Shown here piece after piece: positions 11,434 to 19,471 of a DNA stretch of 22,202 nucleotides. Both the position numbers and the translations under genes were made by a program. Every line of letters begins with the position of its first letter. Position 1 is the first letter of the stretch. The notes below the pieces were generated by a model. That model was given only the letters and a program-made list of their open reading frames with translations. It was not told the origin of the DNA and did not search any database. Source of the DNA: a virus. The stretch lies in the IMG/VR virus record IMGVR_UViG_3300020457_001422, positions 1-22,202 of that record, one strand, 5' to 3'.

Positions 11434-11692
11434 AGATTTTAAAGAACACGCTGATAAAGAACAACAAGATTTGGAAGAGTCTATGAAAGAATCTTTTAGA
11501 CAACGTGATGAAAGAAAGAAACGTGAGAGATTAGCAAACCAAAGAGTAGCAGGAAGTGTTAACTTTCAAGAAGAAGGAGAATTTATATTTTGCTCCAATT
11601 GTGGAGATAGTACCGTACATAAACCAAGATTTGGTGCGTGTGTGAAATGCGGATTAGAAGAATACAATGATAGGAAGGAGGGATTGAATTGA
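11426..11692 (+). CDS. Small zinc-ribbon protein
   Basis: 88 residues from the ATG at 11426, overlapping the previous gene by 8 nt. The first half is a highly charged helix rich in E, K and R (EQQDLEESMKESFRQRDERKKRERL). The second half has two CxxC pairs, CSNCG near 56-60 and CVKCG near 73-77, spaced as in a zinc ribbon. The layout of a charged helical hairpin followed by a four-cysteine zinc site recalls DksA/TraR-like transcription factors. The acidic tip typical of that family cannot be confirmed by eye. It could bind RNA polymerase or nucleic acid. The gene lies directly upstream of viral bS21, sharing 4 nt with it. Confidence 0.8.
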   Translation: MIEDFKEHADKEQQDLEESMKESFRQRDERKKRERLANQRVAGSVNFQEEGEFIFCSNCGDSTVHKPRFGACVKCGLEEYNDRKEGLN

Positions 11693-11892
11693 GTATTACT
11701 GTAGAAGTAAGAGGTGGTAATCTTGAAAAAGCTATGCGTGTGCTTAAAAAGAAAGTACTTAAAGCAGGTATTTTAAGAGAGTATAGAGATAAACAATATT
11801 ACAGAAAGCCATCTGAAATAAAACGTGAGAAGAAAAAACAAGGAATTAAAAACTACAAGAAAAAGCAGAAGCTTTTAGAGAGTAGATTATAG
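11689..11892 (+). CDS. rpsU: Viral ribosomal protein bS21
   Basis: 67 residues from a TTG at 11689. The start is fixed by an AAGGAGG-type site (11676-11682) 6 nt upstream and by the overlap with the previous stop. The sequence follows bacterial bS21 throughout: VEVRGGNLEKAMRVLKKKV near 5-23, LKAGILREYRDKQYYRKPSE near 24-43, then a run of lysines and arginines. bS21 sits at the platform of the 30S subunit next to the anti-Shine-Dalgarno end of 16S rRNA and affects initiation. Viral bS21 is known from pelagiphages and other marine phages, where replacement of the host protein to favour phage messages has been proposed. Together with deformylase and the RimK-like protein it suggests ribosome modification. 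A long structured non-coding stretch follows directly. Confidence 0.93.
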   Translation: MSITVEVRGGNLEKAMRVLKKKVLKAGILREYRDKQYYRKPSEIKREKKKQGIKNYKKKQKLLESRL

Positions 11893-11919
11893 AATTTCCA
11901 GCGCCTGTGCTTTGATAAA

Positions 11920-11927
11920 CATAAATA
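11920..11927 (+). promoter_or_regulatory. Possible late-type promoter (CATAAATA)
   Basis: CATAAATA matches the T4 late consensus TATAAATA at 7 of 8 positions. By T4 spacing the transcript would start near 11933, just before the first helix of the structured region. Weak on its own in so AT-rich a genome; the position is what makes it worth noting. Confidence 0.35.
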
Positions 11928-11932
11928 TATTA

Positions 11933-12185
11933 TACCAGGCAATTCATAAGTCCTGGGGCGTGGAATGGCTTGAATATTTGTGCCGTGTTGTCGCAACAAA
12001 AACAAATACCAGGGTTAGGGAGATCCCAGGACTGGAGTCCATAAAATCTCCCATTGAATTCGGAGCGGTAGCCTTAACCGAGTAGATGTTTTGGGTGTTC
12101 AACTTAAAAAAAATACCCACGCTACTTGTAATATAGAAATTAGTACATATATAAGTAGTAGTGAGTTGCCTTAATGGGACTCATA
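11933..12185 (+). ncRNA. Structured non-coding region between bS21 and hsp20
   Basis: The gap 11893-12221 has no credible gene. By hand count, 11951-12110 is about 46% G+C, far above the flanking genes. Complementary segments: CCAGG 11935-11939 with CCTGG 11952-11956; alternatively TCCTGGG 11951-11957 with CCCAGGA 12025-12031; TATTTGT 11975-11981 with ACAAATA 12002-12008 enclosing TGTTG-TCG-CAACA (11986-11998); GGGAGA 12018-12023 with TCTCCC 12047-12052; CGGT 12066-12069 with ACCG 12077-12080; AGTAG 12081-12085 with CTACT 12122-12126, enclosing TGGGT 12092-12096 with ACCCA 12115-12119; TGAGT 12162-12166 with ACTCA 12179-12183. The first two choices are mutually exclusive, as in a switch. It may be a separate small RNA or the long hsp20 leader. 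No Rfam family is recognised with confidence. Confidence 0.6.
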
Positions 12186-12195
12186 TAATAAAAAT

Positions 12196-12218
12196 AACTT
12201 TGCTTAAAAAAGGAGGTT
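12196..12218 (+). promoter_or_regulatory. ROSE-like RNA thermometer hairpin over the hsp20 start
   Basis: The ribosome binding site AAGGAGGT (12210-12217) can pair with the segment just before it. UUGCU at 12200-12204 faces AGGAG at 12211-12215 across a 6-nt loop, giving U-A, C-G, a G/G mismatch, U-A and U-G. U-G and two A-U pairs then follow beyond a bulged C at 12198. UYGCU opposite the Shine-Dalgarno with a G/G pair is the hallmark of ROSE thermometers, which control small heat-shock genes in alphaproteobacteria. The next gene here is hsp20. Confidence 0.5.
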
Positions 12219-12221
12219 AAT

Positions 12222-12668
12222 ATGACCAATAAAGCATTATCTATTTTTAATCAGTTAAGACCATTATCAGTAGGATTTGATGATGTATTCAATCATTTTG
12301 AATCAATGTTTGACCATCAATTTGATACTCTTAATGTGTCTAATTATCCACCATACAATATCGTAAAAGTTGATAAGAATAAATTTGATGTTGAAGTTGC
12401 ATTAGCAGGATTCAACAAAAAAGATATTAATGTATCAGTTGAAAACGGTATGCTAACTATCGAATCAAAGACGGAAGAGAAGTCTAAAGATGATAAAGAT
12501 GGTGAGGTAATACATAAAGGTATCTCAAAGAGATACTTTAAAAGGTCTTTTACAATCGCTGATGACGTTGAAGTTAAAGGTGCTGAGTTAAAAGATGGTT
12601 TATTAAGAGTTTCTATGGAGAAGATTATTCCAGAGAGTAAGAAACTTAAAACAATAAACATTAAATAG
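12222..12668 (+). CDS. hsp20: Small heat-shock protein Hsp20 (IbpA-like)
   Basis: 148 residues with a strong ribosome binding site 4-5 nt before the ATG. Small heat-shock proteins hold unfolded proteins in a refoldable state without ATP. The alpha-crystallin domain runs from about residue 42 (YPPYNIVKVDKNKFDVEVALAGFNKKDI) through GMLTIESK near 80-87 and a ISKRYFKRSFTIADDVEV strand to GLLRVSMEK. The N-terminal arm has the LRPLSVGFDDVFNHFE pattern of IbpA-type proteins, and the C-terminus has KIIPESKK, equivalent to the conserved I-x-I/IPE anchor. Hsp20 genes are common in T4-like cyanophages and pelagiphages, where a role in capsid or photosystem folding has been guessed. Its leader is the long structured region upstream, with a ROSE-like hairpin at the start. 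A hairpin follows the stop. Confidence 0.95.
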   Translation: MTNKALSIFNQLRPLSVGFDDVFNHFESMFDHQFDTLNVSNYPPYNIVKVDKNKFDVEVALAGFNKKDINVSVENGMLTIESKTEEKSKDDKDGEVIHKGISKRYFKRSFTIADDVEVKGAELKDGLLRVSMEKIIPESKKLKTINIK

Positions 12669-17052: not shown

Positions 17053-18465
17053 ATGCAGATACCTAAATTTAAAGATTACATAACAGAAGCTAAAGGCTCT
17101 GGTCCATTTAGAATTATTATTATTTCAGACGAACCTGAAAACGATAAGAACTTCCATACAGCTAAAAATCTATTAAAACAAGCTGAGAAGCTTGGACATA
17201 AAGGATACATCTATAGAAACACAGGTGGTTATGTTAATAGAGGAGATGACGGAGAGTTATATTTTCATAACAAAGATGATAAGAAAGGCTTTAGAGCATC
17301 CGCAAGAGATACAATTGCTATTATAAGAGGTTCTGTAGTACGTAAAGATAGTTGGATGGACATAGTATCCAGATTAGAAAAGCACGTAGTATGTGTAGTC
17401 AATAGTAGACAATGTGTTAGTATATGTGCTGACAAATATAGAACGTCATTAAGACTTTCTGATTATGGAGTTAAGCAACCTAAAACAGTTTTAATAACTG
17501 ATCCAGAAAAATCAATAGAAGCCTTTGAACAATTAGAAGAAAAGTTTCCAGTTATATTAAAAACATTAAGAGGTTCAAAAGGTGTTGGTGTATTGTTTAT
17601 TGAATCAGAAAGAGCATTAGATTCTATAGTACAATTACTTAATAAACAAGATGAAGATTCAGATTTATTATTACAACAATATATAAAAACTAAATGGGAC
17701 GCTAGAGTATTAGTATTACAAGGTAAAATATTTGCGACTATGAAACGTGAAGTTATACCAGGAGATTTTAGAAGTAATGTATCCCAAGGCGCTGAAGTAA
17801 AAGAATTAGAACTAACAGATTTAGAAATAGAAGAAAGTTTAAAAGCTGCAAAAGCAGTAGACGGTCAATGGGTTGCAGTAGATTTTATACCAGCAGAAAA
17901 TAGAAAAAAAGATCCACCTTTTGTTATTGAAGTTAACTCTTCACCAGGTACAGAAGGTATAGAAGAAGCAACAAATAGAAATTTAAGCAAAGAATTAGTA
18001 CAACATTTTGAAGATAGAGATAACTGGAAAAAAGTTCCTAGTGAGTGTGGTTTCAAAGAAGTTGTTAATATTAAACCATTTGGACGTATAGTTGGTAAGT
18101 TTGATACAGGAAACTCTGGTACGTCTGTTATACACGCTGATAAAATGAAAGTTAGTGGTAAGAAATTAACTTGGACACTAGAAGGTAAAACAATTACTAG
18201 TGATATTATACGTACACAAAAAATTAAAGTGGGCGGTTTAAGAGATTATGAAGAGGAAAGATATGCAATTAAACTTGATGTAGAGTTTGCTGGTGGTTAT
18301 TATAAAGATGTAGAGTTTACACTAGACGATAGGGATGAGAAATCAAAAATTTTATTTGATAGAGAAACAATGAATAGATTTAATGTAATGGTTAATCCTA
18401 ACCGTAAATATGTAATCACAACAAAATATAGTTTAGACGATAAAATAATAGATAAGAATAGTTAA
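17053..18465 (+). CDS. RimK-like glutamate ligase fused to a RimB-like protease domain
   Basis: 470 residues, starting immediately after the regA stop. Residues 1-325 are an ATP-grasp ligase like RimK, which adds glutamates to the C-terminus of ribosomal protein S6: K170 in PVILKTLRGSKGVGV binds ATP, E293 and N295 in FVIEVNSSPGTEGIEE bind metal, and the last motif matches RimK closely. Residues 336-455 form a second domain with DTGNSGTSVIHA (D351-T352-G353), the aspartyl-protease-like signature of the ATP-dependent zinc protease/RimB family (VNIKPFGRIVGKFDTG), and a late strand with ILFDRETMNRFNVMVNP. In pseudomonads RimB removes what RimK adds. Whether both activities survive in the fusion is unknown. 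A phage or host ribosomal protein is a sensible target, but inferred. Confidence 0.9.
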   Translation: MQIPKFKDYITEAKGSGPFRIIIISDEPENDKNFHTAKNLLKQAEKLGHKGYIYRNTGGYVNRGDDGELYFHNKDDKKGFRASARDTIAIIRGSVVRKDSWMDIVSRLEKHVVCVVNSRQCVSICADKYRTSLRLSDYGVKQPKTVLITDPEKSIEAFEQLEEKFPVILKTLRGSKGVGVLFIESERALDSIVQLLNKQDEDSDLLLQQYIKTKWDARVLVLQGKIFATMKREVIPGDFRSNVSQGAEVKELELTDLEIEESLKAAKAVDGQWVAVDFIPAENRKKDPPFVIEVNSSPGTEGIEEATNRNLSKELVQHFEDRDNWKKVPSECGFKEVVNIKPFGRIVGKFDTGNSGTSVIHADKMKVSGKKLTWTLEGKTITSDIIRTQKIKVGGLRDYEEERYAIKLDVEFAGGYYKDVEFTLDDRDEKSKILFDRETMNRFNVMVNPNRKYVITTKYSLDDKIIDKNS

Positions 18466-18761
18466 TGAGTAGAAATAAAGAAGATATAATTAATGAAATT
18501 AAAGTAGTGCTAAAAGAAAAAGTAGCACCATCAGTAGCTGCTCATAATGGATTTATAAATTTTTTAGAGTTTGATGAAGAATTAGGTGTAGTCAAATTAG
18601 AAATGGCAGGTTCCTGTAGTGGTTGTGCAATGTCAAAACAGACTTTACATAATGGTGTAGAAGGTATGCTTAAACATTATGTACCAGAAGTCAATGCTAT
18701 TACTAGTGTTGATGATACATCTTCGGAAGAAAAAGGATATACACCATATTTTCCAGGATAA
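18465..18761 (+). CDS. NifU-like C-terminal domain protein
   Basis: 98 residues, ATG sharing one base with the previous stop (TAATG). It is a stand-alone NifU/NfuA C-terminal domain: DIINEIKVVLKEKVAPSVAAHNGFINFLEF followed by LEMAGSCSGCAMSKQTLHNGVEGMLK, with the cluster-binding pair C51-x2-C54. Such domains carry a [4Fe-4S] cluster across a dimer interface and deliver it to target proteins. The C-terminal tail (TSSEEKGYTPYFPG) is extra. Likely partners in the window are the ferredoxin two genes downstream and possibly host enzymes. NifU-like and Nfu-like proteins occur in several marine phages. It ends about 10 nt before the next promoter. Confidence 0.93.
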   Translation: MSRNKEDIINEIKVVLKEKVAPSVAAHNGFINFLEFDEELGVVKLEMAGSCSGCAMSKQTLHNGVEGMLKHYVPEVNAITSVDDTSSEEKGYTPYFPG

Positions 18762-18818: not shown

Positions 18819-19145
18819 ATGGCAAGTGAAATATTATTAGTAAGGCTAATGACAGGCGAAGATGTCATTGGTAAAATCACAAAAAACGAAAAGACAATTA
18901 CAGTAGAGAAAGGATTTGTTATCATACCTACGCAAGCTGCACCAGGTAAACCTGTGCAATTAATGATGACGCCTTATGCACCTTATTCAGAAGGTCAATC
19001 TATTGAAATTGAAAGAGCATTTGTAGTTTCGTTTTCTAAACCTAAAAAACAAATACTAGATAACTATAGTCAAAATACTTCAACGATAGTAGCACCAAAA
19101 AAACAGCTAATAACTGAAACTGGCCTACCAACGTTGAATAAATGA
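18819..19145 (+). CDS. Sm-like (LSm-fold) small protein, second copy
   Basis: 108 residues, good ribosome binding site, own promoter. The start ILLVRLMTGEDVIGKITKNEKTITVEKGF has the Sm1 pattern (V-x-L-x-x-G-x-x-x-x-G) and matches the first 30 residues of the protein at 278-715. A second strand region, SIEIERAFVVSF near 66-77, could be Sm2. The tail after about residue 80 is polar and probably disordered. No named gene is recognised; a small RNA-binding ring protein is inferred. As first gene of the unit ending in DNA polymerase it would be expressed early. It overlaps the ferredoxin start by 4 nt. Confidence 0.8.
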   Translation: MASEILLVRLMTGEDVIGKITKNEKTITVEKGFVIIPTQAAPGKPVQLMMTPYAPYSEGQSIEIERAFVVSFSKPKKQILDNYSQNTSTIVAPKKQLITETGLPTLNK

Positions 19146-19471
19146 TAACAGTTAACTTTATACGAAACAATAACGAAAAGATACCAGTAGAAATTCCAGA
19201 AGGATTTAGTCTGATGGAAGCTGCTAAGAAGGCTAATCTTCCAGAGATACCTGCTGATTGTGGAGGTAATTGTGCCTGTGCTACTTGTCATATCTATGTA
19301 GGTAATGCTTGGGCAGATAAATTACCAATACAACCGAACTCAATGGAACAAGAATTAATAGAATATGAAAAAGGTTATAAACCAGAAGTGAGTAGATTAA
19401 GTTGTCAGATATATTTAACAAAAGAATTAGATGGATTAACTGTGCATTTGAGGGATTATGAACTTTTATAA
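19142..19471 (+). CDS. 2Fe-2S ferredoxin, adrenodoxin/plant type
   Basis: 109 residues, ATG overlapping the previous stop. The cluster ligands are C40, C46, C49 and C88 in the order C-x5-C-x2-C-x38-C (ADCGGNCACATC, then RLSCQI). An additional cysteine at 44 lies inside the loop. The spacing and the GGNCACATCHIYV stretch resemble adrenodoxin and bacterial Fdx used in Fe-S cluster assembly and in cytochrome P450 electron transfer, rather than photosynthetic ferredoxin. It carries single electrons in the cytoplasm. The NifU-like gene close by suggests the two work in Fe-S supply; host reductase would be required. The polymerase gene begins 14 nt before the end of this one. Confidence 0.95.
   Translation: MITVNFIRNNNEKIPVEIPEGFSLMEAAKKANLPEIPADCGGNCACATCHIYVGNAWADKLPIQPNSMEQELIEYEKGYKPEVSRLSCQIYLTKELDGLTVHLRDYELL

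Follow-up and report, generated by a model that had tools for sequence, protein, structure and literature searches.

A conserved two-hairpin RNA is linked to hsp20 genes, occurs both in phages and in SAR11 bacteria, pairs with the Shine-Dalgarno (SD) sequence and shares its anatomy with a proven RNA thermometer. In our reading, the hsp20 mRNA of the virus analysed here probably begins with such an element, a short ROSE-like RNA thermometer of roughly 60 nt, and we put the probability of this reading at about 0.7. The window, i.e. the whole stretch of DNA that was analysed, is an IMG/VR virus record of 22.2 kb (22,202 nt). Its gene order (AAA/CobS-like ATPase, ribosomal protein S21, hsp20, sliding clamp) resembles that of the Pelagibacter phages Mosig and HTVC008M, with which its Hsp20 shares 67% and 60% identity, respectively. 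The virus is T4-like, of the pelagiphage type. The S21 gene is likewise found in Mosig and HTVC008M.

Structure of the hsp20 leader

The leader, of about 60 nt, contains two hairpins. The features discussed below are the following (window coordinates).

11689 to 11892: gene for a phage-encoded ribosomal protein S21 (Pfam PF01165), directly 5' of the hsp20 leader
12150 to 12157, + strand: late-promoter-like TATAAGTA (consensus match only)
12161 to 12184, + strand: hairpin 1, GUGAGUU-[bulged G12168]-CC-UUAAU-GG-GACUCAU (predicted fold, covariation, strict form in relatives)
12195 to 12219, + strand: hairpin 2, the predicted thermosensor sequestering the SD, UAACUUU-[G12202]-CUU-AAAA-AAGGAGGUUA (fold at 5-42 °C, conservation, covariance-model score of 76.4 bits, the window leader itself being among the building sequences of the model)
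12200 to 12204, + strand: UUGCU anti-SD, ROSE motif U(U/C)GCU (sequence, conservation)
12211 to 12216, + strand: SD AGGAGG (sequence)
12222 to 12668, + strand: hsp20, small heat-shock protein of 148 aa (Pfam PF00011, E = 1.4e-18), with its ATG at 12222

A preliminary description had placed UUGCU at 12200-12204 opposite AGGAG at 12211-12215, ahead of a gene that it called hsp20; these coordinates are exact and the gene product is indeed a member of the Pfam HSP20 family. Hairpin 1 was absent from that description, which had proposed that an 8-pair stem with a G/G mismatch hides the SD. Such a register exists and does cover the SD, but it is only one of two: in the other, 9-10 pairs form with only G12202 bulged, and this second register is favoured by RNAfold for the isolated hairpin 2. 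The bulged-G register also accommodates the UCGCUU form of cyanophages, in which CUC-G-CUU pairs fully with AAG-GAG.

When the 64-nt leader is folded with its AUG, the prediction consists of the two hairpins, and the SD is hidden. Folding at several temperatures had been suggested beforehand as a check. Competing pairings of the SD appear in RNAfold when coding sequence is included, so that the case is made by conservation and could not have been made by folding one sequence. Between 10 and 45 °C, the computed mean exposure of the SD increases from 0.03 to 0.16 in the window and from 0.02 to 0.19 in the proven element of Pseudomonas aeruginosa; the computed melting of the window leader is gradual, with no sharp switch. 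These computed thermodynamics are compatible with a thermometer and are not a proof of it. In several relatives (HTVC115P, Syn19, L352), the bulged-G hairpin 2 loses out in RNAfold to other local pairings. Because the single-sequence fold of positions 12150-12240 is not significantly more stable than that of shuffles (z -0.99), the structure was argued from comparison.

For this purpose, an unguided MAFFT alignment of 51 distinct leaders was compared with shuffles and with the same structure slid along the alignment. In the two-hairpin structure, 89.6% of the cells are paired (78.8% in shuffles) and double-sided changes are found in 101 cells (35 in shuffles). The covariation score of the whole structure reaches 0.350 vs. 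0.178 for shuffled alignments, and it is at most 0.136 when the structure is shifted by one to three columns. Nearly all of this covariation sits in hairpin 1, where six out of nine pairs show double-sided changes while the bulged G is invariant. In hairpin 2, both the anti-SD and the SD are nearly invariant and show little covariation, as expected since the SD strand must also bind the ribosome. The compensatory changes that had been proposed as a check in related leaders are thus present in hairpin 1, but hardly in the arms of hairpin 2. The lengths of these arms nevertheless co-vary: UUUG occurs only with GGAGG (36/36), and CUYG occurs with GGAG followed by a base other than G in 104 of 131 cases, an association that is descriptive, since the sequences are related to one another and do not count as independent.

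A strict form of hairpin 1 was found in all 54 pelagiphage leaders, in none of 171 other gene starts and in 0.4% of shuffled leaders. The detail of this hairpin (bulged G, YGCC/GGG) is more conserved than a mere spacer hairpin would need, which counts against the thermometer reading.

Distribution among phages and bacterial hosts

We compared the leader with those of 80 Hsp20 relatives from IMG/VR, plus Mosig, HTVC008M and Melnitz. UYGCU precedes the SD in all 80 close-relative leaders that were parsed, and wherever the leader is long enough, in the IMG/VR relatives as in the three named phages, U(U/C)GCU lies 5-8 nt before AGGAG. The same loci contain 177 other gene starts with an SD. UYGCU was found before the SD at only two of them, in mutually homologous genes, and the longer YUYGCUU motif at none. 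Conversely, when IMG/VR was searched with the DNA motif alone, 119 exact matches were returned, 98 of them before an hsp20-like open reading frame and a further two before hsp20-like starts truncated at a contig end, most of the remaining ones having no sizeable gene start at this place. With 98 of 119 matches before hsp20 and a background of 2/177, the motif therefore marks hsp20.

The same motif stands before the SD in more distant phages: 53 out of 53 unique Syn19-like cyanophage leaders, both S-PM2-like leaders, 34 out of 34 HTVC115P-like leaders and 18 of the 24 leaders from divergent, partly freshwater, phages, four of the other six having a shortened ACGCUU. One divergent hsp20 group (L342, L346, L349, L371) is a natural variant that retains hairpin 1 with a shortened hairpin 2 (AACGCUUAACGGAGGUU).

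We built a covariance model from marine phage leaders only, 17 sequences of the same kind as that of the window. It also matched leaders from cyanophages, from HTVC115P, from SAR11 hosts (HIMB114, E = 2e-7) and from other bacteria. Over 148 kb, all matches at E<=1 fall on hsp20 leaders. In the whole genomes of HTVC008M and Syn19, the model gave a single match each, at hsp20, and in that of HTVC115P the hsp20 match and one weak match of 13.5 bits.

When bacterial genomes were searched with the phage Hsp20, SAR11 genomes were found, including that of the isolate HIMB114. There, hsp20 adjoins host-like genes on a contig of 1.24 Mb and has the same leader as the phages. The motif is present in 70 of 72 distinct bacterial hsp20 leaders, and in the host genomes the covariance model had its strong matches ahead of hsp20. 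In the protein tree, pelagiphage and SAR11 Hsp20 are intermingled in one well-supported group, and the proteins of cyanophages, HTVC115P-like phages and freshwater phages are placed outside it. Nearly all of the phage and SAR11 host hsp20 genes examined have retained the element. The lack of conservation of the UUGCU/AGGAG pairing, which would have spoken against the preliminary description, did not occur: the pairing is near-universal among hsp20 relatives. The leader of a second SAR11 small heat-shock gene (L427-L446) is not the same (UUUUUAAUCGCUUAAGGAGGAUUAA): hardly any loop separates its anti-SD motif from the adjoining SD, and it may fold differently. Two loci binned as Porticoccaceae and Neomarinimicrobiota (L373 and L374) carry an hsp20 and a leader nearly identical to IMG/VR phage loci, and are probably phage contigs in bacterial bins.

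The promoters upstream of the leader differ between groups. In the window, TATAAGTA would probably make transcription begin at the foot of hairpin 1. The T4-late-like TATAAATA was found in 37 of 52 unique pelagiphage leaders, with TATAA[AG]TA within about 30 nt 5' of the bulged G and most often ending 10-12 nt before it, and a sigma70-like pair in 11 of the 52. TTGACA-TATAAT lies upstream of the leader in 20 out of 35 HTVC115P-like phages. In SAR11, most hsp20 leaders follow CTTGAAA, which is the consensus of the sigma32 -35 box, and HIMB114 also has CCCATATA at the -10 position. For each promoter type, the start expected from the sequence would fall at the foot of hairpin 1. The RNA is thus kept while the promoter differs, which argues for a function at the RNA level.

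Comparison with known RNA thermometers

In the published definition, ROSE-like elements have U(U/C)GCU facing the SD, a small heat-shock gene and two to four hairpins. As far as sequence and predicted fold can tell, the window leader has all the features of this definition that a sequence can reveal. A small heat-shock gene carries it in its 5' UTR, and the matches with E below 1e-3 in phage and host genomes are at hsp20. U(U/C)GCU is imperfectly paired with the SD in the 3'-proximal hairpin, according to sequence comparison and predicted fold. The more stable hairpin is the 5' one, predicted to be stable at 5-42 °C and covarying.

The closest known systems are the short ROSE-like thermometers of Pseudomonas ibpA, which have two hairpins and a proven thermoresponse (Krajewski et al. 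2013; PMC3669281). In P. aeruginosa, hairpin 2 melts with temperature while hairpin 1 stays; deletion of the motif G locks the thermometer and disruption of hairpin 1 derepresses the gene (PMC3669281). Hairpin 2 alone suffices for thermoregulation, and a stabilising role has been suggested for hairpin I (PMC3669281). Both systems have a small heat-shock gene, two hairpins with a stable hairpin 1, and a hairpin 2 with U(U/C)GCU against the SD and one unpaired G, which we observed to be near-invariant across leaders. The leader lengths are also similar (61-62 nt in Pseudomonas, about 60 nt in the window), and our analysis adds as a common feature the bulged G with CC/GG in hairpin 1. In contrast to Pseudomonas ibpA, the window type is phage-borne, has a phage or sigma70-type promoter instead of a sigma32 one, and its hairpin 2 is AU-rich and weaker (computed -2.9 vs. 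-4.7 kcal/mol at 37 °C); the likeness to the proven element is one of sequence and predicted fold.

The 61-nt ibpA leader of OQ572409 (L210) agrees with the P. aeruginosa thermometer at every quoted position (A35, C36, G39, C40, CCGC23-26, G51/52/54, G64). Its hairpin 1, GCGGGAU-[G9]-CC-GAAGAC-GG-GUUCCGC, has the same bulged G, and the phage covariance model matches this leader at 15.2 bits. The record (OQ572409.1, 3684-7103) is an unverified entry named 'Pseudomonas phage Y7' that carries ibpA with the P. aeruginosa thermometer, and it is probably bacterial DNA deposited as phage.

Classical ROSE elements (RF00435, RF01832; Bradyrhizobium hspA, E. coli ibpA) share with the window the gene class, the U(U/C)GCU/SD pairing and the location of the SD in the 3' hairpin, but they have three to four hairpins, whereas the window leader has two. 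The Rfam ROSE (RF00435) and ROSE_2 (RF01832) models, the use of which had been recommended beforehand, gave no match on the window at the gathering threshold or at E<=10, nor on the loci of 11 relatives, the RF00435 control being empty too in 14 control genomes. They did not match the searched host and phage genomes either, a weak result as the RF00435 control matched no genome. All of Rfam, run over the window at gathering and permissive thresholds, returned nothing meaningful, and the RNA family is absent from Rfam. The original proposal of a ROSE-like thermometer is largely supported, by the motif facing the SD, by the small heat-shock gene and by the two-hairpin layout of Pseudomonas; the proposal is not backed by an Rfam match, and its G/G mismatch belongs to one of two registers.

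The cyanobacterial Synechocystis hsp17 thermometer also occludes the SD of a small heat-shock gene by RNA structure, but with a single hairpin (PMC4477652, PMC4166951). In phage lambda, the translation of cIII is tied to a temperature-sensitive RNA structure, as proposed here for hsp20, but this thermosensor has two alternative folds, works in the opposite direction and belongs to a gene unrelated to hsp20 (PMC4166951). On the basis of sequence and predicted fold, the hsp20 leader would add to lambda cIII a second kind of phage RNA thermosensor, unrelated to the first. We found no paper linking phage hsp20 to RNA thermometers in the open-access literature, to which the search was confined.

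Proposed mechanism, alternative readings and neighbouring sequences

In the proposed mechanism, a stable hairpin 1 would lie at the presumed 5' end of the hsp20 mRNA, and a weak hairpin 2 with one bulged G would hold its U(U/C)GCU arm over the SD. At normal temperature the ribosome would be largely excluded from hsp20; warming, or another stress opening hairpin 2, would lead to Hsp20 production. We infer here the start of the transcript, the actual opening of the RNA with temperature and the benefit in infection. Phages would share hsp20 and its translational switch with their hosts, having kept the switch while phage or sigma70-type promoters replaced the host-type heat-shock promoter. Marine phage hsp20 would thus keep a bacterial stress-gated switch after losing the heat-shock promoter, which suggests a protein meant for on-demand synthesis, and viruses and hosts would have in common both the gene and its regulatory RNA. 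T4-like cyanophages have hsp20 among their core genes (PMC3037559), and the idea that phage Hsp20 acts as a scaffold in capsid maturation has been no more than a guess so far. The signal that phages await to produce Hsp20 becomes directly testable. Since the temperature of the open ocean changes little within one infection, heat may not be the selected signal.

Hsp20 might also bind its own leader, at hairpin 1 and/or hairpin 2, and block its own translation until the unfolded proteins of the infection titrate it and release the block; the RNA would then sense protein aggregation, with temperature secondary. This autoregulation is the main rival reading and a serious one, although we hold it to be less likely than not. 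A precedent exists in E. coli, where IbpA binds to the leader of its mRNA, represses its own translation via this 5' UTR and requires arginine 93 to do so (PMC10474464). The equivalent arginine is present in six aligned phage Hsp20s and in that of HIMB114, and absent from IbpB, which is inactive in this respect; however, it belongs to a stretch commonly conserved in class A small heat-shock proteins and is therefore weak evidence. The finely conserved bulged-G hairpin 1 would suit a binding site, and by eye the E. coli ibpA leader contains a matching hairpin (AGGACGC-G-CC-UGAU-GG-GUGUUCU), but in Pseudomonas hairpin 2 suffices for thermoregulation (PMC3669281). Autoregulation and a thermometer are compatible, so that Hsp20 binding may be a rival or a partner of the latter. 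Seawater changes slowly in temperature, and a release of repression by unfolded protein in the late phase of infection may be more important there than heat. The YGCC/GGG bulged-G context of hairpin 1 appears common to marine phages, SAR11, Pseudomonas and perhaps E. coli. It is conceivable, albeit unlikely, that the leader is a dual sensor in which this hairpin is a so far unrecognised autorepression site for small heat-shock proteins, through which phages tie chaperone output to the folding load of virion production and not to heat.

A leader without any sensing, in which the sole role of hairpin 1 is to protect the mRNA at its 5' end and that of hairpin 2 to keep basal translation low, seems improbable. 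5' hairpins do stabilise mRNAs, the role suggested for Pseudomonas hairpin I (PMC3669281), and hairpin 1 follows promoters of several types, at what is presumably the 5' end; but such a leader would not explain the near-invariant unpaired G of both hairpins, the co-varying arm lengths of hairpin 2 or the restriction of the element to hsp20. Still far less probable is a DNA element, namely that the conserved TTTGCTTAA is the MotA box of a middle promoter or a Pho box. TTTGCTTAA resembles TGCTTtA, the MotA-box query used in marine T4-like phages (PMC9004378), and ATTCAAACTCGCTTAAATA before the hsp20 of S-PM2d has been listed as a putative Pho box (PMC10976474). In the S-PM2 hsp20 leader (L204), ATTCAAACTCGCTTAAATA is the anti-SD arm of the RNA element, which offers an alternative reading of this putative Pho box. 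Moreover, the motif is also found in SAR11 hosts and other bacteria, takes the form CTCGCTT in cyanophages, co-varies with the SD and is accompanied by hairpin 1. As a T4 MotA box, starting about 22 nt before the ATG, it would place the transcript start, 30 bp downstream by T4 spacing, inside hsp20. MotA box, Pho box and RegA site were all rejected as reasons for the conservation, as SAR11 hosts and the non-T4 phage HTVC115P keep the element (presumably also decisive for RegA). Finally, a short motif can pair with a common SD by mere chance, a caveat of the preliminary description. This reading would agree with the unexceptional single-sequence folding; with conservation across several phage groups and hosts, 80/80 relatives against 2/177 other gene starts, it is already refuted and its probability is negligible.

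The gap between the S21 gene and the hsp20 leader (11893-12160) gave no Rfam match and no tRNA match, and the stretch 11893-12240 folds better than shuffles (z -2.75). Within it, GGAGCGGUAGCCUUAACC (about 12063-12080) is kept in several relatives (L017, L069, L076, L162, L202) while its flanks vary, and this region is possibly a separate small RNA. Further downstream, near the DNA polymerase gene, three open reading frames resemble by eye a RimK-type ATP-grasp protein (17053-18465), a NifU/Fe-S scaffold (18465-18761) and a 2Fe-2S ferredoxin (19142-19471).
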